A model generated the notes under the pieces. The model did not search any database. It was not told the origin of the DNA and saw only the letters and a program-made list of their open reading frames with translations. A stretch of 64,000 nt of DNA, from the NCBI RefSeq assembly GCF_027942865.1, contig NC_134507.1:36385711-36449710 (forward strand). The letters run 5' to 3'. Numbering within the stretch: the stretch's first letter is position 1; each line of letters begins with the position of its first letter. Shown piece by piece: positions 1,520 to 54,648 of the stretch. The position numbers were made by a program, and so were the translations under genes. The stretch is from Odontesthes bonariensis (lineage: Eukaryota; Chordata; Actinopteri; Atheriniformes; Atherinopsidae).

Positions 1520-1536
1520 GACACTAAGGGCCTCTA

Positions 1537-4050: not shown

Positions 4051-5225
4051 CTGATGAAGCCTCATCGAACAGCAGAAGGTCCAGATGCATCTCAGGGAAT
4101 TTCTGCAAAAATGCCATTTCATGCATGTTAAACTGTTATTTTTATAGATGCAACCAAAGAAATGGGAACAGATGAGAAATTCTTCCCATCCCTGAATTTT
4201 ATCTTGAGGAGCTACTGATGATGCAGCCCTTTTGGCCACCTGGTACCTGCTTCAGGTCAACCTCCTGAACAACCCAACACAAAAGGCCTTTTCTTCTTGA
4301 ATTTTTCCCTACAAGCAGGTCCTATGCTACTGTCCTGATAGGCAATGATGACCTTCTGGCCACACCTCTGCAATTGAGGCTGAGAGGCTCCTTTCAGTTT
4401 CCATGACCCAACCTCAATGGTAATGTATACATTTAATAAAAATACTCAGCTTTGTGTTTCAGATGTCATGAACAGGGTCCTCCACTAGATGTTTGCCCCC
4501 ACCACCTGATCCAATTTACTTCCAGGTAGTGAGTAAGTGACAACATTGAGCCTATAAATTTTGTTTACAAGCCACTTCACTAAAGGTAGCTGCCACATCT
4601 TTTGATTTGTGTAGCACAAGCTTCATTACAAGTATTCAGAGTACAAGACCTTTGCAACCACAGACGATATTATGAAGCCATCCTCGGTCATGGACTTGCA
4701 GAAACTGTCCAGGTTTCACATGGCCCCAGCATCTGATGGGTCTGCCCTTACCCAGAGCTGTAGGGTGAGGACTGCTACAGAGTGGAAAGGTTTCCCCCTC
4801 AGCACAATATGCAGCAGTGGAATCTTCTGATAGAGCTCAAGGCCACACCTTTACCCACTGCTGTCAGAGCTGCAGTTGGCTTTTCAGCCATTTTTAGTTG
4901 GGAATACATTCCAAGCTGAAGCTGTCAAGACCTTCACGAGCTCACCTTTGAGCAGATACCGTCCTTAAGTTAATGCCAACACCTTATTTATAGGATTAAG
5001 TCATGTCAACTTGTCAGGCCCTCAACTATCCCCTCCAACCCACAACTGGATGACCCAGAGACAGCTAGGAGCCATTTGATGGTGCAACAAGGTATTCAAG
5101 TTAAAGCCATTTATTCAAGCGGTAGCAGCAGCGATGCCTCTAGAATATGCAGATCTGCAAGACAAAGAAAGTCAGTCACCTACCAGCAGCTACAGAGAGC
5201 ACACATGCAGAGTAAAATGAGCCTC
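4051..5225. other. Unassigned stretch downstream of the secreted-protein gene
   Basis: No long frame or known repeat is recognised. A GT-type donor (GTGAGG) lies 12 nt past the stop codon of the minus-strand gene at 5239, so this stretch could hold a 3'UTR intron and terminal exon. That is inference only. Confidence 0.4.
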
Positions 5226-5238
5226 ACCAGAAAGATCC

Positions 5239-5971
5239 TCAGAAGCCGCTCTGAACTTGAACCTTGTGCTGAGATGTTTTGCCGTGGTCTGGCTCAGATT
5301 CTGTTGGGGTGTAGCGGAACTGGCTGAACAGCACACGCTTCTTGTTGTAGCGGGACCGAGATTTGTAAGCGTAGACTTGATCCTCGTCGGCCACAGCAGT
5401 GAAGACTGGCTCATCCTCGCCGCTGGTGTCAGATGAAAGGCTCCAGCTCCCATCTTCAAACTGGTAATTGCTGCCAGGAGCTCCAGACTGACCTCCCTGA
5501 GCACCATGCTGCTGTGCTCCAGAACCACTGGTTCCAGTTTGTTTCTGATACGTTGGCTTAGATTGATCTTGCCCATAAACTGAATACATGGGTGAGGAAA
5601 CAGAGAATTAAGATCAGCCTTCCATTTACACCCCGAGTCAATTTAAACTGCTTTTAGTTGCTGAGCTTTGATTGGGATCAGCTTACCGCTTTGTGCAGGA
5701 ATGCAGGCGATGCTTCCAATCAGCACACAAGAAATCCACAAAACCCTGCAGAAACAGGGACATCATATGAAGTTCTGAGTACATTTAGAGACCAGTGGGG
5801 GTCCAACCACCACCTCCCCTTAACATGCCCAGTCCTGTTGAGCTTAACTGCATATTCATAGTGTAATGCTGCGACCAAATGAGGTTCTGCTTGCCTCAGA
5901 CATTTAAGGCAGGAGAGGTTCAGTGCCCCCACTTAGAAGCACTGGGATAGACTAGAAGTTACTCACCTCAT
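5239..5971 (-). CDS. Small secreted protein, three exons, family not recognised
   Basis: Three minus-strand exons join into one clean frame of 134 codons: exon 1 at 5971-5967 (ATGAG, then donor GTGAGT), exon 2 at 5745-5687 (acceptor CTGCAG, donor GTAAGC) and exon 3 at 5579-5239 (acceptor ATTCAG after a pyrimidine-rich tract). The coding total is 405 nt, a multiple of three. The N-terminus MRVLWISCVLIGSIACIPAQ is a textbook signal peptide, implying secretion. The mature part is rich in Gln, Gly and Ser, then acidic (SGEDEPVF), then basic with tyrosines (YAYKSRSRYNKKR) and ends QSGF. There is no cysteine pattern or known domain. A TATA-like CATATGAAAG lies about 105 bp upstream. The splice geometry makes a real gene likely, but the function is unknown. 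Confidence 0.72.
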
Positions 5972-6202
5972 TCTGCTGCAATATAATTAAAGCTTGCCTG
6001 GGACCTGCTCCTGCCAAACTGCACTAACACAAAGTTCAGAGCCCTGTGACACTAACCTGAAGCTGCAGGAGCTGCTTTCATATGATCCTCAGTGCAGAGG
6101 GAACTGATTGCTCAGCGGTAACAGCTGCTGCTGAAAGGTGCGAGGCTGCAGTTAACTGGCAACAATGGACTAACATAGTTGTCCACGAGTTGACACGTAG
6201 TC

Positions 6203-6932
6203 TTAGGCCACATTTACACATAGCCGGGTATTTAGAGAAACAAATATTCCCCCCCCCTCCGTTTTCCAAAATAACATCGTGCACACAACATCGTTTTCAA
6301 AAAACTTGTCATTTACATCAACCCGCATAAATACGCCGTCAAGCGCCATAATAACTATGCCAAACCTATTGGTGGCAGTGTAGGGAAAGGAATAAAGCCA
6401 TGCAAGCCAATCAAAATCCTCAGAATCAAGGACTTTCCTCATGTGAAGGAGGAGATAACGCGAGCAAATATCACAACAAAACTGGAGGCAATAAGAGGGA
6501 AATATAGACAGTCAGTGCATACTGGACGCAGGAGCGGCCACGGAAGAGTGGTGCTCCTCTATTTTGAACTGTGCGAGCAGGTTTGGGGTGGCAAATATAA
6601 TAAGGCCAGAATCGTTTGCACAAACGTAAAAATTAGTAGAACTTTAACATCATCCATGATAATCCTGATCAGTAGCCAAACAAACTGTAAACATAAGGCG
6701 CTCGCATGACGTTAAGCATTTTCTGGCGCATAATGTGACATTTAAGAACCTAAAACGCCGTTTCTCCCAGTTGAAGACGGCAACACATAACCGGCGTTAT
6801 CAGAAATCTCCACTTTGGCCGGAGGTTTTAGAAATAATCGTTTTCTGTGATAAAAACGGGGTTTTGGTGTAAATGAGAGGCAAAACCGCAGGAAAATATC
6901 TGCATTTTCCTATCGTGTAAACGGGGCCTTAG
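6203..6932. mobile_element. MITE with TTTACAC-type inverted termini, TTA flanks
   Basis: The left end TTAGGCCACATTTACACA and right end TGTAAACGGGGCCTTAGG are inverted copies of each other, both flanked by TTA. TTA/TWA duplications suggest the PIF/Harbinger group. The interior has short frames without recognisable transposase, so this is a non-autonomous copy. Confidence 0.65.
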
Positions 6933-6986
6933 GTCATGCATAGATTTCAAAGCAAAGCAGAGATACAAGGCCAATAAACCAGGGAA

Positions 6987-7058
6987 GGGCTCGTCCGGGA
7001 TTTGAACCCGGGACCTCTCGCACCCAAAGCGAGAATCATACCCCTAGACCAACGAGCC
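6987..7058 (-). tRNA. tRNA-Pro (anticodon TGG)
   Basis: A 72-nt gene reading GGCTCGT...ACGAGCC plus discriminator C. All stems pair: a 7-bp acceptor, CTCGC/GCGAG anticodon stem with loop TTTGGGT (anticodon TGG), and CCGGG/CCCGG T-stem. The A box (TGGTCTAGGGG) and B box (GGTTCAAATCC) are intact. The sequence matches the vertebrate tRNA-Pro pattern with no degenerate position. There is no strong T4 terminator immediately 3', only shorter T runs within about 20 nt. Confidence 0.95.
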
Positions 7059-7418
7059 AGGGTTTGCAACTTTAGGCGTCACACGAGCGCCGCGGGCCAC
7101 AGATAGCAAAACGATACCCTCGGAAGGTACGTTCGATCATCGAATAGAAACATCCTACAACTTTCAGTTCAGCGCACTCATTGTCAGTGTTGCTTCCATC
7201 TTTTTTATTTCATAAACAAGGTCCAGAGACTCTCTCAAAACTAACTGTGATTTCTAAAAACGTTTTCATCAAGTCTGACCAAAGAACAGACTCACAATAA
7301 CCATGATGCTCATTGAAAGGTCCATCATTTGATGAAGAGCAACAATGCAAAGCATTGAGTAGAACCCTGCTAACAACCAGTTTCTTATACTAAGTCATAG
7401 CACACTATGATGGACTTG

Positions 7419-7492
7419 AGGCACTGCAGGGATTTGAACCCAGGATCTTCTATTTACAAGACAGGCACTTTGACCAACTAAGCCACAGCACC
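7419..7492 (-). pseudogene. tRNA-Thr(TGT)-like copy A, degenerate
   Basis: Same 74-nt scaffold as the copies at 9784 and 10476, but with a C-A mismatch at the base of the anticodon stem (27-43) and a T-T mismatch in the T-stem. The anticodon loop still reads CTTGTAA. Mismatches in two stems suggest a tRNA pseudogene within the tandem array. Confidence 0.75.
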
Positions 7493-7953
7493 ACATGGTT
7501 CATAAAACTGATGAAGGAATAAAGAGCAGGAACTGCATCCACCTCAGGAAGTGGTTTTTGTGATTTATTTCCGAAATTCATGTGATATCTGCATAAAACA
7601 GGGCATGATATTATTCAAATAATCTGCAAATGTGAAAACATTCAATTAAGTCCCAGTTCAATCTTCTGTACTTCAAGAATAACTAAAGCCATTAGATGAA
7701 GTGCCCCCAAGTACAGACTGTTTTGGAAGTCCAGGGGCCTCATGTACAAAGACTTGCGTGGATTTCCTACTGAAACTTGGCGTACGCTCAAACCCAAATG
7801 ACGTCCAACGTCGGATGTACGAATCTGTGCGCGCGCATGTATCCGAGCACATATCGTTTGTACGTCCCAATCAACGTGGAATTGAGCGCACATGTCGGAG
7901 CAGCCGACTCCTCCCTGTCCACGCCCCTACTTAAATACGCAAATCCTATTTAA

Positions 7954-8410
7954 ATGAGCCCTGCACCTGCGATTCCCCTCTGTGTACGGTTAGAAAATAA
8001 AGAAAAAAGACTGAATAAGACGGGAAAAAAGAAGAATTTCACGGAAAGCGATATGTCGGTGCTACTTTCTGAAGTGGAGGCCCAAAAAAATTTGTTCTTT
8101 GACACGGTGTCCTCCGGCATAAGCATCAAACTAAGAGGAGTGGGTGGGAGAGCGTGAGGCTGTCAATGCTGTGGGGTCTGAGAAGCCTCACAAGCAGAGG
8201 TGAAGAAGAAGTGGTCCAACATTAAGGTGGATGTGAAGCAGACTGGCTGCCCACTGCCGCAGTATGGCCAAAACAGGCGGGTGGGGGGGTGACCGACTCT
8301 GTTTGAATAGAGAGTCGGCGCAACAATGGGTGACACTGCTCTCTCTTGGGGTGGTGGGAGCTCATGTGGGGGACTGATTACCCCCAAGCTAAATACTGAT
8401 GTTTTTGTGT
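7954..8410 (+). pseudogene. Harbinger Myb/SANT-like DNA-binding protein, decayed
   Basis: The open part begins MSPAPAIPLC and contains KKNFTESDMSVLLSEVEAQK, the first helix of the Myb/SANT-like domain of Harbinger accessory proteins. Homology continues out of frame as EVKKKWSNIKVDVK and later as FE-RVGATMGDTAL. In this superfamily the Myb-like protein accompanies the transposase and helps it reach DNA. A stop after residue 67 and further frame changes make this copy nonfunctional. Confidence 0.78.
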
Positions 8411-8701
8411 AACTCACAACAACGTGTTGATACAGTAACGTGCAGAAGTGCGCCGGGGAAAAGGTGAGGCTGATTAAGACCTTTCACACTTTACGCACAG
8501 GGTTATTAACATTTGCCCACAGAGACGATCAGGGGCTTGTTAGAAAGATCTTAAACTGGAGTTTAACCAGCAAAAAACAGCAACAAACTAACTTTAACCA
8601 CCGACTGATGCTGTGAAGACGGGATAGAAACTGGGGGCGCACATACTCAATGCGCGTCACGGGGAATAATATTAGGACAAAACAAGAATAAAGTTACTCA
8701 C

Positions 8702-9275
8702 CAAGAAGCCAGCCATCACGCACAGTGCCAGCTTGTAGTCTGTTCCCAACGATGCTGTTACTCAGAATGTATGAATCGTGCGTTGAACCAGGCCACCTCG
8801 CCACACTTTTGGTTAATTGCATTTACGCATCACATATGATCTGTACATCGATCGAATGAAAATGTTTCCTGTTAACATACAAATTCATCATGTGATGGCG
8901 CTTTTATAACAATGTGTGCGCAGTCGATAGCTCCGATTACAAAACCGGCTCTCGCTTCAAATTGAGCTTTAATGTTGGCCTGTTGGGAACTTGATATACG
9001 TGGCTGAGATGCAGATAATTCTGTCCCACACGGCTGGCATGGCTCGGCTCAGGGTAGACTGGCACAGTCCCAATCGGTTGGCCAGCTCCCTCTGGAATGC
9101 CCCGGTTGCTATAGGAACCCCAGTGTGCACATCACCTCTGGAATGCTCCGGTTGGAACCCCAGTGTGCACATCACCTGTGAGCACAGGCAGCGCATGCCT
9201 CCTCGCTGTGTTGCGCTCCAACGCCGGCCTCAGCTCTGCGCACAGTTCCAGGAGGATTTCCCTCAAAACAGCTAA
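8702..9275 (-). pseudogene. Harbinger DDE transposase (HARBI1-like), decayed
   Basis: The minus strand encodes ELANRLGLCQSTLSRAMPAV (helix-turn-helix region), then GFVIGAIDCAHIVIKAP with the first catalytic Asp, then VARWPGSTHDSYILSNS and RDGWLLG, ending at a splice donor GTGAGTAAC at about 8701. Frames change several times. Two imperfect copies of a repeat containing GATGTGCACACTGGGGTTCC lie in the N-terminal part (about 9090-9180); the sister element at 53455 has five. It is inactive. Confidence 0.82.
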
Positions 9276-9783
9276 TGTGTCGCCATTATATGCCAGCTAA
9301 TCCTCTCTGTTGTAGTGAACACACGCTCTCTTTGAATTGCACCATTTGCAAAGTCTTCTAATACTTTTCAAGCAGCCATTGTTTTTAATGGTATGCATTG
9401 CACCACTTTGCGCTGCTTTTATATCCACTCGTGTAAATGGAGACACATGGGTGTGTTAATTGTTGATCAGTATTAATTGTTCATCCATCTCAAATGTGCA
9501 CATCACTGTCTGAGGACAAATTGTTTTCACATTTATTTATTATAACAGTTTCCCAACATCACCTTAGGTGTCGCCAAAGAATCATCAGCTGCAGAAACGT
9601 GCGTATGCCAGCCCTGAAGCTGCCGTGAGGCACCGCACATTTCCACGGTCTTTTCGTTCTTGATACATCTGATCGTTGACGTGAAAAGGTGCGAACGCAC
9701 CCTTTGTACATGAGGCCCCAGCACTCCTGAAGCACTGCCGTAAACAGTTATGGCACCATGTTGATGTAAATAGTAACACCTTA

Positions 9784-9857
9784 AGGCACTGCTGGGATTT
9801 GAACCCAGGATCTCCTGTTTACAAGACAGGCACTTTGACCAACTAAGCCACAGCACC
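9784..9857 (-). tRNA. tRNA-Thr (anticodon TGT), copy B
   Basis: A 74-nt gene with all arms intact: acceptor GGTGCTG/CAGTGCC (two G-T wobbles), D-arm GGCTTAGTTGGTC, anticodon stem CCTGT/ACAGG with loop CTTGTAA (TGT), T-arm CTGGG/CCCAG, discriminator T. The body follows the vertebrate tRNA-Thr(AGT) scaffold apart from the first anticodon base, so this may be an isoacceptor switch. It is the best-preserved copy of the array. No long T-run terminator directly follows. Confidence 0.8.
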
Positions 9858-10011
9858 ACATGGTTCCAAAAACTGATGAAAGAATAAAGAGGAGGAACTG
9901 CATCCACCTCAGGAAGTGGTTTTTGTGATTCTGTACCTCAAGAATAGTTAAAGCCATGAGTAGAAGTGCCTCCAATTGGTTCAACACTTCATCATATTTT
10001 GCAGATATTGT

Positions 10012-10072
10012 TGGGTTTTCAACTCAGATCCTGGTGTTCATGAGGAAGGCACTTTCACCAGTTACAGCCTGA
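10012..10072 (-). pseudogene. Degenerate tRNA relic in the array
   Basis: The minus strand reads GTAACTGGTGAAAGTGCCTT, then CATGAACACCAGGATCTGAG, then TTGAAAACCCAACA. This aligns with the D-arm, anticodon and T-arm of the neighbouring tRNA-Thr copies with many substitutions. The anticodon position reads CAT. It looks like a dead fourth copy. Confidence 0.55.
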
Positions 10073-10079
10073 TCTCATG

Positions 10080-10380
10080 AAGCGGTGTACTCATTACACG
10101 CCAAGTCATTGACCCTGTTTTTACAAGGTTTTTTATGCTTTTGTGTATTATTTTACACTTCATATTTTGAGGAAATGACGTCCTGCCCTCAGCTTTTACT
10201 CTAACTCTGACTATTTCACGGTTTGTACGTTCATTTTGATGTTATGTAGTGTGACAGGAGGAGAACCTCCACCGTACTGTACCCTAACCAATTGACTTGT
10301 TATGTGAACGGAGTAAAATTACACTCCGAAAGCATAAAATAGGCATAAATGACACTTTAAAAGCTGTGGGCTATTTATAT
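10080..10380. other. Spacer within the tRNA array
   Basis: AT-rich DNA with a short section (TGTGACAGGAGGAGAACCTC, then TACTGTACCCTAACC) that reads like a dispersed repeat. No gene is seen. Confidence 0.4.
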
Positions 10381-10475
10381 GCACTTTTATTAAGTGGACC
10401 AGTGAGAAGCATTTAGTAGAACCCTGATAATAAGCTGTTTTATATGCTAAGTCATAGCACGCTCTGAAGGACCAC

Positions 10476-10549
10476 AGGCACTGCTGGGATTTGAACCCAC
10501 GATCTCCTGTTTACAAGACAGGCACTTTGACCAACTAAGCCACAGCACC
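10476..10549 (-). tRNA. tRNA-Thr (anticodon TGT), copy C
   Basis: Identical scaffold to copy B except for one base that creates a G-G mismatch at the base of the T-stem (GTGGG/CCCAG). The anticodon loop CTTGTAA and the A and B boxes are intact. It may be functional or an early pseudogene. Confidence 0.65.
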
Positions 10550-10848
10550 ACATGGTTCATAACACTGATGAAAGAATAAAGAGCAGGAACTGGATCCACG
10601 TGGTTTTTGTGATTTATTTCTGAAATTCATGTGATCTCTGCATAAAACAGGGCATGATGTTATTCACATTATCTCTATATGTGAAAACATCGGATTAAGT
10701 CTCAGTTTAATCTTCTGTACCTCAAGAATATTTAAAGCCATGAGATGAAGTGCCTCCAAGTACAGACTGTTTTGGAAGTCCAGCACTCCTGAAGCACTGC
10801 TGTAAACAGTTATGACACCATGTTGATGTAAATAATAACATCTTAAGG

Positions 10849-11000
10849 CGACAGCAGCGCGAGGTCCCGCTGTTGAGAAAACACTTCTTTTCTGTCCATG
10901 AGCGAAGTGGTGAACCCATCCACGCAGTGAACATGTGGAAGCCTGCCGGGGGACCGAGGCTCGCCTTCAGCTCAGCGGGACCTCGCGCTGCTGTCGCCGC
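10849..11000. repeat. 26-bp inverted repeat bridging the tRNA unit and fringe exon
   Basis: GGCGACAGCAGCGCGAGGTC... at 10849-10874 is the exact inverse of 10975-11000 inside the fringe exon. The next bases, GTTGAGAAAACA, are the inverse of GTTTTCTCAAC near 11081-11092. Short inverted patches copied from the neighbouring exon suggest a template-switch or foldback repair junction. Confidence 0.75.
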
Positions 11001-11239
11001 GGTCACCTGTCGGCTGGTGGCCGGGATGCTCTGCTCACTGGCGGACACCAGAAGGAGCTGCCGGCTGCAGGGGGCGCGGATGTTTTCTCAACTTATTTCA
11101 GGCGGCTGGCCCGGGAGAGGAGAGCGGTGAGCAGCTCACACAGGCTGACCTGTTCGTGGCTGTGAAAACCACCGGGAGGTATCAGCGGCAGAGACTGGAG
11201 CTGCTGCTGGACACCTGGGTCTCCAGAAACGCACCACAG
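10873..11239 (+). pseudogene. Fringe-family glycosyltransferase exon 1 (lunatic/manic/radical type), frame-broken
   Basis: Fringe proteins are Golgi beta-1,3-N-acetylglucosaminyltransferases that modify O-fucose on Notch. The 3' part encodes ADLFVAVKTTGRYQRQRLEL and then LLLDTWVSRNAPQ, followed directly by splice donor GTGAGT at 11240. This matches the end of fringe exon 1 (FIAVKTT...RLxLLLxTWISR). Just upstream, VFSTYFRRLARERR, also fringe-like, is in another frame, and a possible ATG segment (MWKPAGGPRL) lies in the third. At least one indel therefore separates conserved blocks. No later fringe exons are seen downstream. It may be a duplicated, dead exon, or a real exon with assembly indels. 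Confidence 0.65.
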
Positions 11240-11923
11240 GTGAGTCAGGCTGGAGACTGCAGAAGCTCTGCACTGAAAACAAATGAACCCTTAATTCACA
11301 GCTTATTTGCATAAAAGTGACAGAGCCCTTTAAACGGCTCAATTTGGGAGAGACTGAAACTTGCAAGAATAGAGCTGGTGAAATCTCTTTATGTGAGAGT
11401 GATTTTGTGCAAAGAACTTCATGGACATGTTTTGTATAGCCCATAGACCAATTCTAACTTGTTTAAAGAGGTAAAATATGTCTCCTTTAACAAAGCAAAC
11501 TTTGAATATTTGGCACTGAAAATGCTCCTATCTGTGTATTTAAACAGCGTGTTTCAATGTGATAGAAGATGATTCCCATGAGAAGAGAACTGCTTTTCTA
11601 CATGACTGAGAACAGGCTAATGTGTCTACATCTGAAATAAAACTGTAGAAAAAGGGGACACCTGATAGAGGACATTTAGAGGCATTCCTTTTTAAATGTT
11701 TGGTGAGCTGATCTGTCAGTGTTAAAGAAGCAGAAATGAGAAACTCCTCTGAAGCTGATCAGAAATTGAAGTTTTACGGAGCACCAAAGAAAAATGTTTC
11801 ATTGATATCAAACGTCAAACTTGATCAGTCAGTCATATTTTGTCAAAATGTTTCATCACTGATCAGCCTTTAACGTTTAAAAGATGCTTTATTTCGTTCT
11901 TCGACAGCAAATTAGCTCGCTGA
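11240..11923. other. Unassigned sequence between fringe exon and 7SL gene
   Basis: No coding or repeat signature recognised. If the fringe exon is live, this is the start of its first intron. Confidence 0.4.
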
Positions 11924-11931
11924 TGACGTCA
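11924..11931 (+). promoter_or_regulatory. CRE/ATF site upstream of 7SL
   Basis: A perfect TGACGTCA lies about 50 bp before the 7SL start. Vertebrate 7SL genes are known to use an ATF/CRE-type element at this distance along with internal pol III signals, so the spacing supports a working promoter. Confidence 0.7.
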
Positions 11932-11973
11932 GGATCAAAAAGCCCAAAACCTGCTTGAATGAGAGCAGCTGTC

Positions 11974-12268
11974 GCCGGGAGCGGGGGGGCGCGCCTGTAA
12001 TCCAAGCTACCGGGAGGCTGAGGCTGGTGGATCGCTTGAACTCAGGAGTTCTGAGCTGCAGAGGACTATGTCCATCGGGTGTCCGCACTAAGTTGGGTAT
12101 GGATATGGTGCGCCTGGGGTAGCCCGGGAACACCAGGTTGTCTAAGGAGGGGTGCAACGGCCCAGGTGGGAAACGGAGCAGGGCAAAGCCCCCTTGCCGC
12201 TCAGTAGTGGGATCGTGCATGTGAGTAGATGCTGTAGTGCAGCCTGAGTAATACAGCAGGACTCAGTC
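11974..12268 (+). ncRNA. rn7sl: 7SL RNA (signal recognition particle RNA)
   Basis: About 295 nt, colinear with vertebrate 7SL from GCCGGGAGCG through CGCGCCTGTAATCC, GGGAGGCTGAGGCTGG, GGATCGCTTGAACTCAGGAG, GGGTGTCCGCACTAAGTT, AACACCAGGTTGTCTAAGGA, GGAAACGGAGCAGG and GATCGTGCATGTGAGTAG to AGCCTGAGTAATACAGC. Both Alu-domain ends and the S-domain elements are present: helix 6/8 and the GGAGCAGG loop bound by SRP54. 7SL is the scaffold of the particle that targets secretory ribosomes to the ER. The upstream CRE, full length and immediate T-run favour a gene over a retrocopy; there is no A-tail. The stretch around 12080-12110 differs most from the human pattern. Confidence 0.9.
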
Positions 12269-12273
12269 TTTTT
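12269..12273 (+). terminator. Pol III terminator T5 after 7SL
   Basis: TTTTT directly follows the 7SL 3' end, as expected for RNA polymerase III termination. Confidence 0.75.
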
Positions 12274-12430
12274 ACACTCTTTCTGCTCTTCCACACACAC
12301 AACACACTGCACGCGCGCTACAACGACACGCTTTGACATCTTTTAGCAGCTTCCTCGCTGCTTCTCTGGCTTCTCTTTCCCTTACAAAGCACAGCTGTTT
12401 CATGCTCCTGCAGTATGGGATCAAATAAGG

Positions 12431-12504
12431 GTCAGAAAGATTTTGCACTTGTACAATGATGTGTGCCTCCCCTGGAGGCGTGGGTTCAAATCCCACTTCT
12501 GACA
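12431..12504 (+). pseudogene. tRNA-Leu-like pseudogene
   Basis: A 7-bp acceptor stem GTCAGAA/TTCTGAC and the 3' half CTCCCCTGGAGGCGTGGGTTCAAATCCCACTT (in two parts: CTCCCCTGGAGGCG and TGGGTTCAAATCCCACTT) match the variable arm and T-arm of vertebrate tRNA-Leu. The D-arm and anticodon arm between them are unrecognisable. The B box is intact but the A box is lost. Confidence 0.7.
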
Positions 12505-12997
12505 TTGCAGACTTCTCCTGGAGAACTATTTTCACTGGCAAGGCAACCCAAGTTTACTCCTTGCTTAGCAATACCATGCCGTATTGCTATTTTGGCACTG
12601 CATCATCTAGTTTAAAGATTATTACGGCCGCTTTACCTCCAAAGAGTTCTCGCTTCCAAATGCTATGCCGACTATTTGTTTGCCTCAGGAGCCCTGTAAA
12701 ACAACAGCCAAGGGACTTGTTGCATGAGAATCTTCTGACCACAGCTCAACTAGCTGTGTTGTCACAACCTTCTACAGTGCTTTGGGCAGGACAGAATCAT
12801 TAGCAAAAGGCACATTATTGATTATAAGGTTTTGGTTTGCACTCAACACCACAGTAAATGGGAAAGGGCTTTTGACCGAAGCAACCTGGCCTCATGTTAG
12901 GCTAATTGAAGGGGGCTATTGATATTTAGGCCGAAGATGGGTGAGAGTATCAAAACAATCATCACTTGGTGGCAGGCAGCTGATAAAAGACAGAGCT
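12505..12997. other. Unassigned sequence between tRNA relics
   Basis: No supported gene. A 115-codon frame overlaps the tRNA-Leu relic and has no family resemblance. Confidence 0.4.
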
Positions 12998-13069
12998 CTC
13001 CCCGTTAGGGAATCGATCCCCGATCTTCCACGTGTCAGGCAGAGTTACTGTCCATTATACTAACGAGGA
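12998..13069 (-). tRNA. Asp-type tRNA with GAC (Val) anticodon, possibly a pseudogene
   Basis: The 72-nt body TCCTCGTTAGTATAATGG...GGGGA follows vertebrate tRNA-Asp, with a paired acceptor stem and discriminator G. The anticodon loop reads CTGACAC, so the anticodon is GAC (Val) rather than GTC (Asp). The anticodon stem TCTGC/GTGGA keeps pairing with wobbles. T54 is A, weakening the B box, and the T-stem has one mismatch. It is either a pseudogene or an identity-shifted tRNA. Confidence 0.6.
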
Positions 13070-13639
13070 ACTTCTGTGTGGCAGATACAGTCATCACATG
13101 AAAAGATAACTATCGCCAAGGAGTGAAATAAGATTTTCGTGTCCCGTTTCAAGGTCTTGCTTGTTAGTATAAATTCAGATAAAGGAGAATTCCGCGTTGT
13201 GAACTGTATTTAATTCTGTTTTCTCTCCACAGCTTGAGAAACATGAAATAATAATTAAACAATTCAACACAACTTGAACTCAAACTTGTCATTATTGTAC
13301 GGTTCATGCAAAGTGTTAGAAATGTGTTTTTTACATTTATATTTATAGTGGGGTGCCATGACCTAAACGTGTGGAAAGTTATAAATCATCTCTGTATATT
13401 TAGCCTTCTTACACTTGCTCTGACTTAAACTGCTACTGTGTCAATGCTAAATTATGAAAAGAAGTTCTAACTCAAAGGTCACAACAATAAGGATCAAAGG
13501 AAATATGGGTCCCTGTATAGGTCCCTCACTGTGTCAGGAGAAACTGAGTCCTTTCAGGCACTACAACCTGCAGGGAATCAAGGAGGAAAGACTTGAGCCT
13601 GAAAAGTTGTCCACAAGACAAAATGTATAAAATATGAAG
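13070..13639. other. Unassigned sequence
   Basis: AT-rich, with no gene or repeat recognised. Confidence 0.4.
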
Positions 13640-25885: not shown

Positions 25886-26489
25886 TTGAAAATCAATTTA
25901 TTTAATTTTCCAAAGCAAAAGCGTACCATTCCCATTACCCAGTACCATTTAAAATACACGTGTTTACATATATAAACACAGCGCCGTCGAACACCTCTAG
26001 TAATTTACACTACATAATTAGTTTCAACAAGAGCAATGCATTGACAACTATTATGGGCGGCCATTTTCTTCAAAGCGGTTAACTGTCGAAGAACATTTAT
26101 GACCATGACGCCCTCTGGTGTCAAAACTCGTTCGTAGCTTGTGAAATATAATTCTTTCTTCCCCTTTTCTTCCCCGTTTATGAAACACATTATCCAAATA
26201 AAGAAATGTTCGTCTTAATGGACAATTCTTTTCAGCATAATTGGGAACCTGCTTAAGCTAGCCCAGGAAAATGTCTTTGTCTTGTGTCAAGGCAAAGACA
26301 TTTTTCCCCCAAAAAACGTTTGTAATGAATTATATTTATATTCAATTGACATAATACTTTCTTAAAGAAGGAGACACATATGGCACTAAACATGTTTTTA
26401 AAAAACGAACTTAACCACTCACCTTTCTCGCAGACTGTACTCACTCGCAATAGCGCGCCGAGCCGAAGCGAGCTGGTGGAAAAGCGCCA
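25886..26489. other. Unassigned sequence
   Basis: No gene recognised. CGCCCTCTGGTGTC near 26110 is a common end motif of fish retroelements but is too short to classify. Confidence 0.35.
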
Positions 26490-26493
26490 TTAA

Positions 26494-27673
26494 AGGGATA
26501 GTTCGGGATATTTGACATGGATCTGTATGGCATCACCATAACCAGTGTCGTGCATTCAAACTGACTTACCCCCGACAGTGTCCTGTGAGCCGAGTTTTTG
26601 TCCAGTGTTGGTCAAGGCGAAAGTAGTCCGGCTTGTTTGTAGGGTCAAGAAATTAGCGCGTTTTTCTTCCCAAAACAGTACGTGTGCTAAAGAGTGATTT
26701 ATTTCATCACAAAAACCGAAGCCGGCAAAAGTCACTCCTCGTTATCACTTGGGCCCTATACTGTCTCTCATTGTGTATCAGTGCGCACGTCATTCTGACC
26801 GCGAGCTGTGCGCACGAGTTCACTTTGTTTACTGCTCGGGAAGATGTCTGACAACGAGAGCGACGAGGAACATATTGACTTCCGTTCAGAGCCAAGGGGG
26901 TATCTTTATGAACCCGTTTATACTGAGGAGGAAGTTCGCCAAATGGACTTAGATCGGGCAGAAAGAGAGAGGGTGGACAGAGAAGTGATGGAAACAGAAG
27001 CTGGAGCCACTGCTGGAGCTGCGATACCCAGGGTGGCCGACAAATCCTGGTGCACTTGTTTGAAGTGCGAAGTAATGCAGACAGAGGTGGAATGTTACTG
27101 CTGCCACGAGTGGGATTTAGTTATGCCCCAGATACAAAACCTTTCCATAGATGAGGATGTCGGCGGCCGCGGGACAGCTGCTGCCTGCATCACAAATAAC
27201 GGGGACTTCCCTGCACTCCTGAATGCAGGCGTCTTGAGAACTTTTTTCCATGTTCCCAAGATCAACTGGAAGAGGCGTCCCAGACCAGCTGGACCCGATG
27301 GCCAGTTGTCTGCAGAGTAAGTGTTGAGCACTGCCAAAGAACAGAAAGACTCGTGCGCACAGCTCGCGGTCAGAATGACGTGCGCACTGATACACAATGA
27401 GACAGTATAGGGCCCAAGTGATAACGAGGAGTGACTTTTGCCGGCTTCGGTTTTTGTGATGAAATAAATCACTCTTTAGCACACGTACTGTTTTGGGAAG
27501 AAAAACGCGCTAATTTCTTGACCCCAGCAAACAAGCCGGACTACTTTCGCCTTGACCAACACTGGACAAGAACTCGGCTCACAGGACACTGTCGGGGGTA
27601 AGTCAGTTTGAATGCACGACACTGGTTATGGTGATGCCATACAGATTCATGTCAAATATCCCGAACTATCCCT
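26494..27673. mobile_element. TTAA-flanked DNA transposon with 325-bp inverted termini (Kolobok-like)
   Basis: Left arm 26494-26818 and right arm 27350-27673 are near-identical inverted copies beginning AGGGATAGTTCGGGATATTT, flanked by TTAA at 26490-26493 and 27674-27677. A TTAA target fits Kolobok or piggyBac; the very long termini and start sequence favour Kolobok. The 530-bp interior carries one ORF and no transposase, so the element is non-autonomous. Confidence 0.9.
26844..27320 (+). CDS. P2X7 ballast-domain-like protein carried by the TTAA element
   Basis: A 158-residue ORF starting MSDNESDEEH just inside the left terminal repeat. An acidic and Glu/Arg-rich N-terminal part (to about residue 55) is followed by WCTCLKCEVMQTEVECYCCH and then ACITNNGDFPALL. 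This cysteine spacing resembles the zinc-binding cytoplasmic ballast domain of P2X7 receptors and of many fish P2X7-like loci. There are no transmembrane segments, so it is not a channel. The end coincides with GCAGA/GTAAGT, a plausible donor: the frame may be an exon whose downstream partner, carrying the usual C-terminal part, was lost when the element shrank. Function in the element is unknown. Confidence 0.65.
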   Translation: MSDNESDEEHIDFRSEPRGYLYEPVYTEEEVRQMDLDRAERERVDREVMETEAGATAGAAIPRVADKSWCTCLKCEVMQTEVECYCCHEWDLVMPQIQNLSIDEDVGGRGTAAACITNNGDFPALLNAGVLRTFFHVPKINWKRRPRPAGPDGQLSAE

Positions 27674-28379
27674 TTAATGAAAGAATGAATGCAGGAGAAA
27701 ATGAGAATGAATGGAGAAGTGAATGCGGAAGGGAGAAAGTAGGAATGCAAGCTTGAATGATGTGAGGAATGCAGGGGAGGATGCGAAAGACGGCGGCTTC
27801 AAAAAGGAGCTGACAGTGATTGTGGAGCTAGCAGGGGACGACAAAGTACTGCGGTCACGTCATCTGCGCTTCGGAGAGGCACGCTCGCGCTAGCTACACT
27901 TGAAAATCGAGTGCCCGTTTACATCGCGTCGTACGGTAAAGCGTGTGAGTGGATTTATGGTGCATTCAAGTGCACCCCATAAACTCAGAAATCTATATCG
28001 AAGTTGATTTTTCATTTGTTGGAGTATACACCTGTCATTACTTGGTTGTTTTTTTTACTACATTCTTTTTAATGATTAAAACAAAATGATAGAACAAAAT
28101 TATTGAAGCATATTCAGAATCAAACTCATTTCTGCATATTCAGATTTGAAAACTTCATTTAGAACCAAATCAAAATGTTCTCTCCACCAGATTCTTGTTC
28201 TACATGTCCCCAGCTACCTCTGTGGTGATTTTCAAGTTATTTCACTGCATCATTGTTTAATAATTTGATGCTGAAATCATCGGTCACATCCCCCCATCTC
28301 TTTATATCACTCTTCTTCTTTCCTTTTTCATAATGTGGTTTCATTTCACCATTTTTGCCTTTTACTTGCTTGATGTCCT

Positions 28380-38471: not shown

Positions 38472-39428
38472 TCATTTCTCTGCAGTGTGAATACGTTGGT
38501 GTCTCTTTAGATGAGATAATTGAGTGAAAGTTGCCCCACACTGACCACAGATGAAAGGTTTCTGTCCTGTGTGAATACGTTGGTGTCTCTTTAGAGTAGA
38601 TAATTCAGTGAAAGCTGCCCCACACTGACCACAGATGTGTGGCTTCTCTCCGGTGTGAATGCGTTGGTGTGCCTTTAGATGAGATAATGTAGTGAAAGCT
38701 GCCCCACACTGACCACAGCTGTATGGCCTCTCTCCTCTGTGAATACGTTGGTGTGCCTTTAGATGAGATAATTGAGTGAAAGCTGCCCCACACTGACCAC
38801 AGCTGAAAGGTTTCTCTCCTGTGTGAATACGTTGGTGTGCCTTTAGATTACCTAATTGAGTGAAAGCTGCCCCACACTGACCACAGCTGAAAGGCTTCTC
38901 TCCTGTGTGAATACGTTGGTGTGTCTTTAGATTACCTAATTGAGTGAAAGCTGCCCCACACTGACCACAGCTGTAAGGCTTCTCTCCTGTGTGACTACAT
39001 TGGTGTGCCTTTAGCCTAAATAATGCAGTGAAAGCTGCCCCACACTGACCACAGATGTATGGCTTCTCTCCTGTGTGAATACGTTGGTGTCTCTTTAGAT
39101 GAGATAATGCAGTGAAAGCTGCCCCACACTGACCACAACTGTATGGCTTCTCTCCTGTGTGAATACGTTGGTGTGCCTTTAGACTAGATAATGCAGTGAA
39201 AGCTGCCCCGCACTGACCACAGCTGAAAGGCTTCTCTCCTGTGTGAATGCGTTGGTGTGTCTTTAGATTACCTAACTGAGTGAAAGCTGCCCCACACTGA
39301 CCACAGCTGTAAGGCTTCTCTCCAGTATGAATTATCTGATGATACCTCAGACGAGATCGTTTGATAACTTTCCCACAGTCCTTACAGCAGTGCCATCTGG
39401 ATCCCTCTTGGGCTCTAATTTTCTGCAA
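38472..39428 (-). CDS. C2H2 zinc-finger protein, final exon with 11 fingers
   Basis: A 318-codon frame with eleven consecutive C2H2 fingers in 28-residue units and canonical TGEKP linkers. The first (CCKDCGKVIKRSRLRYHQIIH) is divergent; the other ten are nearly uniform (CGQCGAAFTxLxxLKxHQRIH), differing mostly at helix positions that contact DNA. This is typical of fish KRAB-less poly-zinc-finger transcription factors. The frame opens right after a splice acceptor (TCATTGCAG) at about 39429, so this is the last exon of a longer gene, and the initial Met is not necessarily a start. One finger has HQCSH for HQRIH, one linker is HRGERP and the last is HTAEK then stop. Upstream exons are not visible; a LINE lies immediately beyond the acceptor. 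Confidence 0.88.
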   Translation of the reverse strand: MQKIRAQEGSRWHCCKDCGKVIKRSRLRYHQIIHTGEKPYSCGQCGAAFTQLGNLKTHQRIHTGEKPFSCGQCGAAFTALSSLKAHQRIHTGEKPYSCGQCGAAFTALSHLKRHQRIHTGEKPYICGQCGAAFTALFRLKAHQCSHTGEKPYSCGQCGAAFTQLGNLKTHQRIHTGEKPFSCGQCGAAFTQLGNLKAHQRIHTGEKPFSCGQCGAAFTQLSHLKAHQRIHRGERPYSCGQCGAAFTTLSHLKAHQRIHTGEKPHICGQCGAAFTELSTLKRHQRIHTGQKPFICGQCGATFTQLSHLKRHQRIHTAEK

Positions 39429-39439
39429 TGACAGAGAGG

Positions 39440-41795
39440 AAGAAGACTTAGATCCTTTTGAAGTTGTATTTTATGATAATCTTCAGACAATCTTAAATCA
39501 CTGCAACTCGAAAAAGGAAATCATCCTACTCGCTGATTTTAATATCAACTGGGACATCAAGTCAGGGAAAAAATTAAACAGCTGATGTATGAGTACAATT
39601 TGACACAAATTATAAAAGGACCGACAAGAATAACTAATACATCAAATACAACAATTGATCTAATATTTACTAATAATCCTGAAAGAATCTCTGAGACTTT
39701 TAATCTATTATCAGGCCTTTCAGATCACAACTTGTGCTCATGGAAAATTAAGAGGAAGCATTTAATGGCATCCACCAGAGGTCACCAGTTCTACTTCATA
39801 CCCAAAAGCCAGCAACAATTCCTGAATGAGGAAATCCAAAATCTAGAATGTCTAATATTCTGGAAAATAACGACATTGACGCTAGCTCAGATGCTTTATT
39901 AAAAAAAGTCAATGATATTATAACGCACTTATTAAAAAAAAGGGGTAAATCTAAGCAACATAGAAATAATCTACCTTAATTGAACAATGAAATTATAAAA
40001 TGAATGAAAAATCGAGATAAAGTCTTAAGGATTACCCGTAAGGTGAAAGCAGATTCTATATTGAGGCCATAAATGGGGCAAATGGCAATTAAAAGCTAAT
40101 ATGGAACAAAATTAATAATATTAAACTACACTAGAAAAAATAGTAACGTTGAGTCGTTGTATCGTTGTAAAATATAAAGTTGAGTCTACAGTCATAAACT
40201 TTGAATGAGGTCTCTGTGACATTGTATGGCTAAGTTATGATGCCTCCAAAATAGGACAGTTTTTGGCTCGTTAAGCGCTTTTCAATGCATTTTCCCATTG
40301 CATTGTGGGTCATTTCAAACTTAACTTAACTATCAGTTTAAAGGAGAAATGCAGATCAGATTTATAACATGAAGCTGTTATAATAGGGCAGCCATCTTGG
40401 CTCTGCCCTCATAAGCAGTGTCAGAACAGTGCAGGCTAACAAGGCGTTGCCCCGGTAACAGGAGCAGGTGCGGCTCGTCTTTGTCACTGACATGTACGCT
40501 CACTATGGCTTCTTAAAATTGCACTATAATTTTGACTGCAGTCGACTATCTCGACCAAACGGTCACTGTTCGAAAAGCAAAAGTCATATCCGAATAATTC
40601 TTGAACCGTCAGCGCCCCAAGAGACGGCATAAGCCAGCGGTGTAATTTTAGTTCGGCTACTATGTGTGGCTCGTTTTTTATGGCAGTTTTAAAATCATTT
40701 TCACCTGAATTTTCTGATTTTAGGCCTTTATAATGGGTGGAATATCAGCTGGAGGGCCGACTCTCTGGGCTCAGAGGCAATTTGTGATAAAAATGCCGTT
40801 TTGAAGTAAAATTTGTCCAGATCGGGCAGATATTTTGGACATGAGAGACATTTGTTTGAGGAATTGGTGCAGTATTACATTCAGAGTGAGAAACATAGTG
40901 GGAGAGACACCTCAGCTGAGATGTAGTCTTCCTAAAACTTAAACCGCCGTTGTGTCAAAGCTGTATAATATATATACAAACCCTTTGATTCAGTTAAATC
41001 CGAGAGTCTCCTGTCACATATAAACTTTGAATGAGGTCTGTGTTATGCTTTATGGCTGAGTTATAAGGCCTCTAAAATAGGCCATAGTACTTCATAAGTG
41101 CTTTTCAATGCATTTTCCCCATTCACAATTTTCCGACTTTTTCCCATTTTGTCGGAATTCCTTTAGACAAATGAGAGCCAAACATAATAGCATACCATTC
41201 CCGATCGATAAGCACGCAGGCCGGTCGGACCATCGCTGCTAGACTAGTAGCACGCCGAACTTTAGGGCGGAAACGGGAGAATAAAAAGTCTGGCAACAGA
41301 TTAAATATGTCTAATGCCTTCGGCTGGCGCCCATAATTATTTATCTCCCCATCTTAGTGGTCTACAGCTCCATGTAAACTATGAGCTAACTGAACAACCT
41401 GGAGATTACTGTGAGTTATCAATAGATTTTTCAGTTGAGGAACTTGCGAAGCCCTTTAAATGCTCACATATTTCATCTCTAAAAAGGCCAGAGATTCATT
41501 TGGTCTTACTAGTGACCTTTTAAAGACCAATAAACAGGCTCTTGCTGACCCAGCTGCACATCTTGGAAATGTGTCCATAAAACAAGGAACGGTACTATCG
41601 ACGTCTTTAAGGCCGACAAAATCTATCGACCCATAAGTATTTTACCTGGAATTTCCAAAGTAGCGGAGAAATAGGTTACCACAGAACCGATTGAACACTG
41701 AAATAATGGCCATGCCACTCTTCATCCAATGCAGTTTGGATTTAGGAAATTCCATTCAGCAGAGACAGCAACTTGTTATTTCCTAGAAAACTTAA
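39440..41795 (+). pseudogene. LINE endonuclease-reverse transcriptase, 5' part, broken
   Basis: Plus-strand frames give LADFNINWDIKSGKK, KGPTRITNTSNTTIDLIFTN and LSGLSDHNLCSW (endonuclease, 39440-39900). After a foreign block at about 40128-41280 the RT starts: YRPISILPGISKVAEK-like, then HPMQFGFRKFHSAETATCYF-like sequence to 41795. Stops and frame changes are frequent. The RT stops abruptly where the Rex1-like LINE begins. A matching C-terminal piece reappears at 54152-54578. Probably a jockey-superfamily fish LINE; the exact clade is uncertain. Confidence 0.78.
40128..41280. repeat. Block with long direct repeats interrupting the LINE
   Basis: Two direct copies of a ~110-bp unit (40197-40310 and 41028-41125) share ACTTTGAATGAGGTCT, a TATGGCT(A/G)AGTTAT block and GCTTTTCAATGCATTTTCCC. 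No protein is recognised between them. Its absence from the LINE reading suggests an insertion, but its ends are not defined. Confidence 0.5.
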
Positions 41796-42069: not shown

Positions 42070-42761
42070 GATTCTTACTCGGCGCAACCGCGCAACTGTT
42101 CTGGCTCGAGAACCATTAATGACGTCATCGAAAGCGCCAGCCCCTTCACAGTTCCTTCAGCTTATAAGCGCAGTTTGCGCCGAGTATGCGTTACAGTTCT
42201 CTCCAGACCAGCGGGCGTCACTGTTGAGGAAACAAGCTGAAGAACCGGACGAAGAAAAGCATACACAATGCCACCTGTGGTGTCACGTCAGCAGAGGCTG
42301 GCACATCTGATGGAATGAATTTACTCTGGGTGTAGAACTGTATATGTATCTCAGAGCTAAGCGGCTGCGGCAAAAACAAAATGTGCACGGATGCATTTCC
42401 ATGTTTTCTTCACATCCACCACCGACTGCCCCAGATGCCTGCCAAATTCCCCCCAGGAATTCGACACTGCCGTGTTGTCCCAGTGTAACTTCATAGACGT
42501 GTCGTACAGATGTTTGTAGAGGCGCACCCTCTCGGTCACCGCGGTCTCTGCAGTGTTCATGTTTCCTTTCTCTTGGTCAGCTGTTTCCGGTTGAGCTCGC
42601 GCGAAGTCAGAAAAAAAGTTGTGTGCACGACCTTGCGACGCGCGAGGATTTTTTAGCTTGTGACGGGGGGCGTGGCGGAATTTTGGGTCACGTGACCGTT
42701 TGCGCCATTTGCAACCAGCTAGTAAGAATGGGTCAAAGCGAGGTTGCGCCGAGTTAGAATC
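42070..42761. mobile_element. TIR element carrying a MADF/Myb-like exon, inserted in the LINE
   Basis: Ends GATTCTTACTCGGCGCAACC and, inverted at right, GATTCTAACTCGGCGCAACC. Flanks AAGCCT and AAGCTT may be a 6-bp duplication with one change. LINE homology breaks at 42069 and resumes at 42762. Confidence 0.8.
42357..42560 (-). CDS. MADF/Myb-SANT-like domain exon
   Basis: Minus frame from MNTAETAVTERVRLYKHLYD, followed by NTAVSNSWGEFGRHLGQSV and DVKKTWKCIRAHFV. This matches the MADF fold (LYD..., WxEIxxxLG, V--KW--IR-R) found in Adf-1-like factors and in accessory proteins of PIF/Harbinger transposons. The frame continues a few alanines past the domain and stops. No DDE transposase is present, so this is probably the accessory gene of a non-autonomous copy. 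It may have been the only gene kept because its product still binds the termini (inference). Confidence 0.65.
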   Translation of the reverse strand: MNTAETAVTERVRLYKHLYDTSMKLHWDNTAVSNSWGEFGRHLGQSVVDVKKTWKCIRAHFVFAAAA

Positions 42762-44101
42762 AAGCTTCAGCTGTCTCCTCCACTTCACACCTCGCCCCCC
42801 CACCACACATCCTGCGGACATCAACCCCCGACTGCTCTCAACGCCTTTGTCCTCCACTTCTCAACCCCCCCTGCTGAGTGCATTGGACTTCAACACCTCT
42901 CCTCCAGACTGCTTTTACCCCACTGAGGCATCAACCCCCCTCCCCCGCCTGATGTGAGTACTGGCCAGGTGAAGAGACAGCTGGAAAGACTCCACCTAGG
43001 CAAGGCTGCAGGACCTGATGGCATCAGCCCCAGAGTTCTGAGGACCTGTGCCAGCCAGCTGTCTGTTTAACCTGAGCCTGTACCTAGAGAGGATCCCAGC
43101 ACTGTGGAAGACGTCCTGCGTGGTTCCTGTCCCGAAGAAGATGACACTATTCTGGACTCAATGATTACCGACCAGTAGCTCTCACATCTCATGTGATGAA
43201 GGTGCTGGAGAGACTGGTCATGACGCATCTCAGACCGCAGGTGGCTTCTTCCCTTGACCCTCTACAGTTTGCCTACCAGCCTCACCTGGGGGTGGATGAT
43301 GCTGTTGTTTACCTGCTGCAGCGTGCTCACTCGTACCTGGATGGATCTGGTTGCACTTTGAGAATCACATTCTTTGATTTTTCGAATGCATTCAACACAA
43401 TCCGGCCGGGTCTACTGAGTGACAAACTGCAGGTCATGGGGGTAGACACATCCATCATCTCCTGGATTGCTAACTACCTGACAGACAGACCACAGTATGT
43501 CCTGCTGGGCAGTGTTCTGTCTGATGTGGTGGTTGGCAGTGCAGGAGCTCCTCAGGGGACTGTGCTGTCTCCTTTCCTGTTTACCTTGTACACCACAGAC
43601 TTTAAATGTATAAGGGATGGACAGGAGGGGGAGTACAGAGCGCTGGTAGAGGATTTTGTGGATTGGTCTGGCAGAAATCACCTGCTTCTGAATGTGGCAA
43701 AGACCAGAGAGATGGTCATTGACTTCAGAAGGAGGAGGACGGCTCCAAAACCTCTGTGCGTTCTGGGAGAGGATGTTGCAGTGGTGGAGGACTACAAGTA
43801 CCTGGGAGTGCACCTGGACAACGGACTAAACTGGAGGACCAACACCGATGCTGTCTACAAGAAGGGAACTCTATTTTCTGAGGAAGCTGAGATCCTTCAA
43901 TGTGTGCAGCAAGATGTTGGAAATAGGGCTGTCGCGATAACCGCAAAATGTAATCACCGCCGTGCTGAGAGGACCTCCGCGTTGCATGTCCAGGCCACCG
44001 CCACCACCGCCCACCGCACGCCCCCTTGCGCGCGCAGAACAACTCGAGAAACTAAAAGAGTTTTTAAGAATGCACAGTACATACAAAGCGACTGACAGAA
44101 C

Positions 44102-51441: not shown

Positions 51442-53279
51442 GTCTGGAAGGTTCATACTGGGTCAGGAGGTCACTGATGTATTTTGGTCCTAGACGATTC
51501 AGAGCTTTATAGAGCAGCATCAGAACTTTAAAGTCTATCCTCTGATGGACAGGCAGCCGGTGTAAAGACCTCAGAGCTGGACTGATGTGGTCCACTTTTT
51601 TGGTCTTAGTGAGGACTCGAGCAGCAGAGTTCTGAATAAGCTGCAGTTATCTAACAGACTTTTTAGGTAGACCTGTAAAGATGATGTTACAGTAATCAAG
51701 CCTACTAAAGATGAATGCATGGACTAGTTTCTCCAGGTCCTGCTGACACATCAGATCCTTTAACCTTGATATATTCTTAAGGTGATAGTAGGCTGACTTT
51801 GTTACTGCCTTAATGTGTTTTTCCAAATTTAGGTCTGAGTCCATCACTACACTGTAATCGTTTCTCTTTGGCTCCAAAGACAATTACCTCAGTTTTGTTT
51901 AGCTGGAGAAAAGGTCTCCTGGTGACATTGTAATATATATCTGCGTGTCATCTGCATAGCTATGGTAGTTTATTCTGTTGTTTTTTTATAATCTGTGCCA
52001 GTGGGAGCATGTAGATGTTAAACAGAAGAGGTCCCAGGATGGAACCTTGGGGAACTCCACATGTGACTCTTGTCTGCTCAGATGTAAAGTTACTTATTGA
52101 CACAAAGTACTTCCTGTTCTCCAAGTATGTTTTGAACCAGTTTAGTACAGTTCCGGAAAGACCCGCCCAGTTTTCCAGTCGTTTCAGTAATATTTTGTGG
52201 TCAACTTTATCAAATGCAGCACTGAGATCTAGTAAAACTAAGACTGACATTTTTCCACCGTCTGTATTCAGACATATGTCGTTAAACACTTTGGTCAGAG
52301 CAGTCTCAGTGCTGTGGTTCTGTCTAAAACCTGACTGGAAGGTGTCATAGCAGTTATTTTGTTTAAAAAAGTAATTAAGCTGTTGAAAATCCGCTTTTTA
52401 AATGATCTTACTTGAAAATGGGAGATTTGAGATAGGCCTGTAGTTGTTCATTTGTGTCTTGTCAAGATTGTCCTTTTTCAGCAGAGGTTTGATTACAGCT
52501 GTTTTTAGTGGCTCTGGAAACACACCCGACATTAAAGACAAGTTCACAATCAGTAACAGGTCTGACTGCAAAATCTTTGAGACCCTTTTGAAAAAAGCTG
52601 TTGGCAGGATGTCTAAACAGCAAGAGGAGGAGTTCAGCTGACGTAAGATGTCCTCCAGGTCTTTGCTGTTAATGGGTTGGAACTGTGTCATGGTGTTTAA
52701 ACGGGTTTTCGGTGGAGACGGTACATATGCTGAACCTGCTGCTGATGTACCAACTGCTTGTCTAATATTTTGGATTTTGTCAGTGAAGAATTTGGCAAAG
52801 TCATTGCAGGCCATGGTGGAATGAAGTTCAGTTGCCACTAACACAGGAGGGTTTGTTAGCCTGTCAATTGTAGCAAATAAGGCCCGAGCATTATGAGCAT
52901 TATGATGTCAGAGAAGTAGGACTTTCTTGCATTCCTCAGTTGTAAATTATAAAAGTGAAGTTTCTCTTTATAGATGTTATAATGAACCTGGAGATTTGTT
53001 TTTCTCCATCTGCGCTCAGCTTTCCGACACTCTCTTTTCCCATTTTTCACTAGTGTGGAATTTCGCCATGGAGACTTCTTCCTTCCAGAGATAACCTTCA
53101 CCTTAATGGGAGCAATAGCATCCATAACATTTAACATTTTAGTATTGAAGCTACTGAGGAGCTCATTGACTAAAGCCCCGGACAGGGCAGGTGTTAAAGA
53201 GAAGACCTGGTTAAAGATCTCACTACTGTTTTCAGTTATACACCGTTTTGAGATCACTGCTGCAGTATTAGAAGACTTT

Positions 53280-54578: not shown

Positions 54579-54648
54579 CCTCCTCCACACTGACCTGTGG
54601 CCCGGTGGACCCAGAGGATGAGCGGGCTCGTTTCCTGGTGGAGGGGTT

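Follow-up and report, generated by a model that had tools for sequence, protein, structure and literature searches.

A short TTAA-flanked element of Odontesthes bonariensis read as a deletion derivative of a KolX-bearing Kolobok

Within a 64,000-nucleotide stretch of the Odontesthes bonariensis genome (the whole of which we refer to as the window), a short element with long terminal inverted repeats encodes part of a protein related to the cytoplasmic ballast domain of P2X7. We conclude with high confidence that this element is a copy of a young, amplified, non-autonomous family that derives from a Kol0-type Kolobok by one deletion of ~6.4 kb and that carries the first exon of the accessory gene KolX as a passenger, and our confidence rose because a full-length parent was found. 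A preliminary description of this DNA had proposed a TTAA transposon packaging a P2X7-like domain; the transposon and the domain it carries both stand, while the special domain cassette gives way to a deletion derivative of a Kolobok. The element thus provides, in one genome, a worked case of a published idea, comprising a two-exon KolX Kolobok together with a derivative formed by deletion across a 3-base microhomology, and it shows that the KolX exon is dispensable in cis for the spread of the element.

The element and its ~325-bp inverted termini were recovered at 26494-27673 as previously described, with arms of 326 and 325 nt (Table 1). Its ends are AG...CT, i.e. 5'-RR...YY-3'. The two arms are identical in 321 of 327 alignment columns (98.2%, E 1.9e-160) and differ by three substitutions and three gap positions, and the left arm matches its counterpart in the full-length parents described below at 96% identity. 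An AATAAA motif is present at 27463 (+ strand) in the right arm and, as its mirror image, at 26698. Of the 32 nt separating exon 1 from the right arm, comparison with the parents showed that only the first 8-11 nt are intronic and that the remainder is parental sequence beside the right arm. We found no second copy of the element within the 64-kb window and no Rfam match in a scan of 26000-28200, and RNA folding of the element core gave no signal (z -0.94). A separate inverted repeat of 17 nt with a 3-nt loop lies ~190 bp to the left of the element, at 26268-26304.

Table 1 Features of the element and its immediate flanks, in window coordinates
Feature	Position	Strand	Comment
Left TTAA target-site copy	26490..26493	.	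Flank of element
Element between TTAA copies	26494..27673		1180 bp, AGGGATAGTTC...GAACTATCCCT
Left terminal inverted repeat	26494..26819	+	326 nt, begins AGGGATAG
Leader before start codon	26820..26843	+	24 nt, same in both parents
KolX exon 1	26844..27316	+	157 codons and 2 bases
KolX intron start	27317..27324	+	Donor GTAAGT, phase 2; unspliced reading GAG TAA
TGA, 3-base microhomology at deletion junction	27325..27327	+	~6391 bp of parent absent here
Sequence adjoining inner side of parent's right arm	27328..27348	+	
Right terminal inverted repeat	27349..27673	-	325 nt
Right TTAA target-site copy	27674..27677	.	Flank of element

The 158-codon ORF (26844-27320) begins 24 bp inward of the left arm and its stop codon (27318-27320) falls within the GTAAGT that starts at 27317, so the coordinates agree with the original account of a frame that opens just inside the left terminus and closes at a splice donor. 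It covers the N-terminal part of KolX and the cysteine part of a P2X7-type ballast domain, and the cysteine layout is as claimed (WCTCLKC...CYCCH, then ACIT; C70, C72, C75, C84, C86, C87, and C115). Nine other ORFs of at least 50 aa in the element and two stop-to-stop frames had no Pfam match above cut-off, two weak sub-threshold matches having E-values of 0.047 and 0.069; the statement that nothing else is encoded therefore holds at the level of Pfam domains.

Among 73 candidate proteins, a relationship to the ORF was confirmed at E <= 1e-3 for 23 (best 3e-82), and the 13 named relatives are all from fish. Fifteen of the 23 were aligned, with P0013-P0017 and P0019-P0021 omitted as broken or partial, and share 47-82% identity with the ORF. 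All ten full-length relatives among these 15 read on past the donor with Q-[YC]-RL-[VI]-AYR and have Cys at seven columns; the ORF has six of these, and the seventh is encoded on exon 2. No relatives were confirmed in viral contigs (5 and 52 pattern matches, and an empty third search) or in prokaryote contigs (47 pattern matches). We also assembled a wider set of 123 proteins above a minimum length, to which a second search contributed the best 120 of 124. In 37 of the 66 proteins without a named source, the last profile position is 152-156 and is followed by no more than 3 residues; another 16 stop short of 152, 10 extend to at least 200, and 3 behave otherwise. For the 57 with a named source, the corresponding numbers are 49 that reach 200, 4 that end before 152, and 4 others. 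These end points are consistent with an intron position common to the relatives, although some of the contigs may be transcripts. In P0120 and P0124, a terminus reads into KolX and the family likeness is lost after ~46 and ~36 residues, respectively, and P0125 has a terminus followed by other sequence.

Several relatives are unusual in their own right. The frame of P0019, almost the same as that of P0001, loses its likeness to the family beyond CCHEW, as though it entered an intron or insertion at that point. P0021, a predicted Astyanax collectin protein, has KolX exon 1 as its N-terminal ~65 residues followed by a C-type lectin, and is either an exonised transposon or a gene-model fault. The last 61 residues of the Labeo rohita "myosin heavy chain" protein P0101 are KolX exon 2 from the intron boundary onward. 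Finally, P0102 is a KolX fragment on a 1786-bp contig filed as Vibrio parahaemolyticus, most likely fish contamination.

The profile comparison with P2X7 proposed in the preliminary description succeeded for the relatives and fell short for the ORF on its own. Alone, the ORF, which is a partial domain, matched P2RX7_C (PF20478) with E 0.002 and 18.5 bits, under the gathering cut-off of 23.5, and a PDB search with it returned six weak matches (best E 0.43), none of them P2X7. By contrast, 14 of the 16 aligned members matched P2RX7_C at E <= 0.01 (best 4.3e-15), and their profile matched P2X7 chains in the PDB (best 6u9v, rat P2X7, E 1.5e-4), a match that rests chiefly on the C-terminal half, the cysteine part scoring 3.0 bits. 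Predicted structures were of poor quality (mean pLDDT 45.9 and 46.2). The P2X7 ballast shares the WCxCxxC, CC, and CIT cysteine layout with the window ORF, and LPSC and GQYxGFK with the parent's exon 2; unlike P2X7, the element lacks a P2X channel domain, and no other domain was recognised in it.

Two full-length parents are present in the same genome, at 328-7902 of locus L068 (7575 bp) and 367-7934 of locus L070 (7568 bp). Each is bounded by TTAA at either end and has arms of 329-330 nt, and the two elements share 98.9% identity. They were first seen as L052 and L053, the two of 20 loci of a protein search that carry an arm, exon 1, and exon 2. The parental KolX has two exons and reads inward from the left end, and its exon 1 is 96.6% identical to that in the window. 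The intron (L068 1152-1707, 556 nt, GTAAGT...TTTCAG) is joined as A-CAG-TAC to give SAE|QYRL, after which exon 2 runs to a stop. Exon 2 matched P2RX7_C above cut-off (E 6.9e-9, 36.3 bits, cut-off 23.5), and exon 1 alone was below it (E 0.012). On the minus strand, a transposase-like gene that reads inward from the right end and is absent from the window copy contains a THAP domain (L068 7139-7471; E 2.4e-14, 54.3 bits, cut-off 23.9). Another minus-strand ORF contains DPWH, which may correspond to the C/DxxH signature of Kolobok-type transposases, and matched MULE weakly (E 0.0051, 17.6 bits, under the cut-off of 27.6); the other matches among the nine parent ORFs scanned (HET, ISL3, DPM2, and MIF4G) were all weak and below cut-off. 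Thus, the longer copies that had been anticipated exist, with the same termini, a downstream exon, and a transposase-like gene, and parental exon 2 holds the C-terminal half suspected to lie on a lost exon behind the GTAAGT. Among the best 150 of 503 candidates in a search with exon 2, the parents came top at 90 and 88%, followed by three matches at 85-88%; the rest were at most 74%, except for one partial match (31 residues, 90%). Both parents lie within or beside long satellite arrays with a period of ~167 bp (L070 1-366 and from 7935 on; L069; the end of L068).

The relation between parent and short form is written in the junction. The window reads GTAAGTGT-TGA-GCACTGCC. In the parents, the left side is GTAAGTGT-TGA-CACC and the right side is CCTGC-TGA-GCACTGCC, so that the loss of 6391 bp in a single deletion (1160 to 7551 in L068), with the TGA in common, accounts for the window sequence. 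With at most two mismatches allowed in 19 bases, 53 of the 59 loci L009-L067 contain this junction; the parental intron takes its place in L052 and L053, and L048-L051 have neither. The distinct copies with the junction number 53 (window included, L062 = L047 counted once) and are all the distinct short copies examined. Because one junction is common to 53 distinct copies, the deleted form spread after the deletion; a one-off deletion confined to the window copy, which we also considered, is incompatible with so many copies carrying one junction. Fourteen of the junction copies (L054-L067) came from the protein search. A DNA search of the genome (945 Mb, 187 contigs), in which the best 40 of 1544 first-look candidates were scored, gave 40 full-length copies (window included) that are 98-100% identical to the element; these are the copies nearest to the window and do not represent older ones. 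Each of the 40 is bordered by TTAA at either end, and no two have the same flank pair. Among the copies sampled, the short form outnumbers the parent.

Several of these properties match what is published on Koloboks. According to passages of Kojima and Bao (2022, PMC9587614), Koloboks of the Kol0 lineage carry genes for a transposase and for KolX, a protein that shows the ballast fold and resembles P2X7 residues 476-595, and Koloboks have 5'-RR...YY-3' ends and a C/DxxH signature; the THAP domain is reported in Kolobok transposases in passages of PMC6004289. Here, the 4-bp TTAA target-site duplication is found in the window, all 40 copies, and both parents, the window element and parents share AG...CT ends, and L068 has THAP in its transposase gene as does XKol. 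That its KolX belongs to the P2X7-ballast family is indicated by the P2RX7_C match of parent exon 2 and by the relatives. The parent accordingly resembles the Kol0 Koloboks of PMC9587614, as there described, in TTAA, RR/YY ends, a ballast KolX, and a separate transposase gene, while the window form is without transposase and KolX exon 2. The T2-MITEs and XKol of Xenopus, as presented in passages of PMC6004289, are alike in their TTAA target, an AGGRR terminus, and the existence of short non-autonomous Kolobok forms, and THAP in their transposases resembles the parent here; the window element differs in keeping arms of ~325 nt and a coding exon. The passages of PMC9587614, PMC7016195, and PMC6004289 on which we draw give no role for KolX in transposition.

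The link between KolX and P2X7 is already in print and the idea is therefore known: in those passages, Kojima and Bao conclude that a P2X4-like gene and KolX fused to form P2X7 and regard nanor as a likely domesticated KolX (PMC9587614). Rump and colleagues (PMC7016195, passages) had earlier recognised the ballast domain in nanor and other short proteins of animals, and their paper makes no use of the word stem 'transpos'; those nanor proteins are likewise short proteins with the ballast domain only, but they are host genes. The preliminary description had left two directions open. That P2X7 took its tail domain from such an element, namely from KolX, is the published reading (PMC9587614, in the passages cited) and is probably correct; since Kol0 Koloboks ordinarily carry KolX as an accessory gene, there is no need to assume that a transposon captured the domain. 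One difference may be informative. The parental intron separates the cysteine part of the ballast from its GDP-binding part, whereas P2X7 carries the whole domain in exon 13 (PMC7016195, passages as above), and mapping of introns could therefore show which KolX lineage was the donor to P2X7.

Because the 40 copies of the DNA search are only 0.17-1.02% from the majority sequence, the short family is young. Frames are intact in 32 of the 40, giving 20 distinct proteins. A stop at codon 87 is present in five copies (L023, L028, L029, L031, and L041), L029 having a further stop at codon 58, and stops are found at codon 104 in L024 and L037 and at codon 4 in L040; for the stop common to five copies, gene conversion is a possible means of spread as well as transposition. 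Conserved cysteines are lost by C72F in L036, L038, and L041 and by C70W in L046. The distinct changes from the majority are 32 replacement, 10 silent, and 3 stop, against 27.0, 11.3, and 1.6 expected from the change spectrum outside the ORF (binomial P for replacement against neutral expectation 0.50 without and 0.41 with stops). The ORF carries 0.095 derived changes per site, and the two arms carry 0.089 and 0.086. L054-L067 were kept out of this comparison because they were picked by protein score and lean to intact frames. Judged by these changes, exon 1 in the short form looks like a neutral passenger. Between families, dN/dS is 0.31-0.34 for the window against L049-L051 and 0.32 and 0.14 against the two parents (10 changes each), which fits constraint acting in the full-length lineages.

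KP derivatives of the P element act as repressors and offer an analogy for a truncated KolX. The short form might by this analogy be maintained as a coding element for a product with a trans-acting, for instance repressive, function, and both the 32 intact frames of 40 and the between-family dN/dS below 1 could be taken to favour it. However, intact frames are expected in copies so close to their majority sequence, low between-family values can stem from full-length lineages, and the within-family changes fit neutrality. Because of this neutral pattern, the stops common to five and to two copies, and the lost cysteines, we regard such a coding role as very improbable; the neutral pattern and the shared stops also led us to reject a special cassette under selection as the main reading. 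Slightly less improbable, and still unlikely, is that full-length Koloboks make KolX both as a spliced and as an unspliced short form, the latter ending exactly at a phase-2 GTAAGT donor seen repeatedly among fish families, that the short form is fixed in the deletion family, which floods the cell with it and so titrates transposition, and that P2X7 would descend from an intronless KolX lineage. A piggyBac element that acquired the ballast domain would share the TTAA target; it is scarcely credible given that the ends are RR/YY as in Kolobok, that most of the conserved cysteines are missing in piggyBac proteins (PMC9587614, in the passages cited), and that the parent carries THAP, its gene content effectively refuting this origin, with no piggyBac match among the nine parent ORFs scanned. 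As for a chance ORF or an assembly artefact, 8 of 5000 first-order Markov resamplings of the 529-nt core produced an ATG ORF of this length and inverted repeats can be assembled wrongly, but the homology to 23 proteins rules out chance and the dozens of independent copies with differing flanks leave the probability of either practically nil.

We therefore return to the deletion derivative, for which we propose the following course. A parent of 7.57 kb with ~330-nt terminal inverted repeats, a two-exon KolX reading from the left, and a THAP transposase-like gene reading from the right would have suffered one internal deletion of ~6.4 kb, in the direction from parent to short form, with its breakpoints at TGA just inside the KolX intron and at the base of the right arm, so that both arms and KolX exon 1 remained. 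The short form would retain everything that the transposase must see at the ends and would multiply by transposase supplied in trans, with exon 1 drifting without selection as a passenger. Because the two parental genes read inward from the arms, each arm probably holds a promoter, and the left arm, directly upstream of KolX, probably contains that of KolX; the AATAAA in each arm could end transcripts coming from the opposite side.

KolX exons abound in this genome, with at least 146 places matched by P0004 in a protein search that scored the best 146 of 2211 candidate places. L049 and L050, of another KolX family, are fold-back elements of 1378 and 1371 bp in which an inverted copy of the first 248 nt of KolX precedes the right arm and the inverted repeat thereby extends into the gene. 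A second uniform exon set matches P0004 residues 45-194 in at least 35 places at ~62%, most with one internal TGA, and is probably another amplified short family. Some exon-2 matches (e.g. C20:6971294 and C19:37436088) lie in open frames of 170-220 codons; these are perhaps intronless KolX families and would then be relevant to the single-exon ballast of P2X7.

Elsewhere in the window, reverse-transcriptase ORFs (Pfam RVT_1) lie at 1935-3872 (+), open across 645 codons, 43145-44095 (+), and 51960-52397 (-). A MADF DNA-binding domain was matched at 42357-42860 (-; E 2e-5), and 38472-39470 (-) holds a C2H2 zinc-finger array of 84-bp units, open for 332 codons. Five tRNAs, three of them Thr(TGT), are predicted within 6 kb at 6987-13070 (-), and a minisatellite at 54645-54989 consists of ~29 copies of a 12-bp unit with several frames open.
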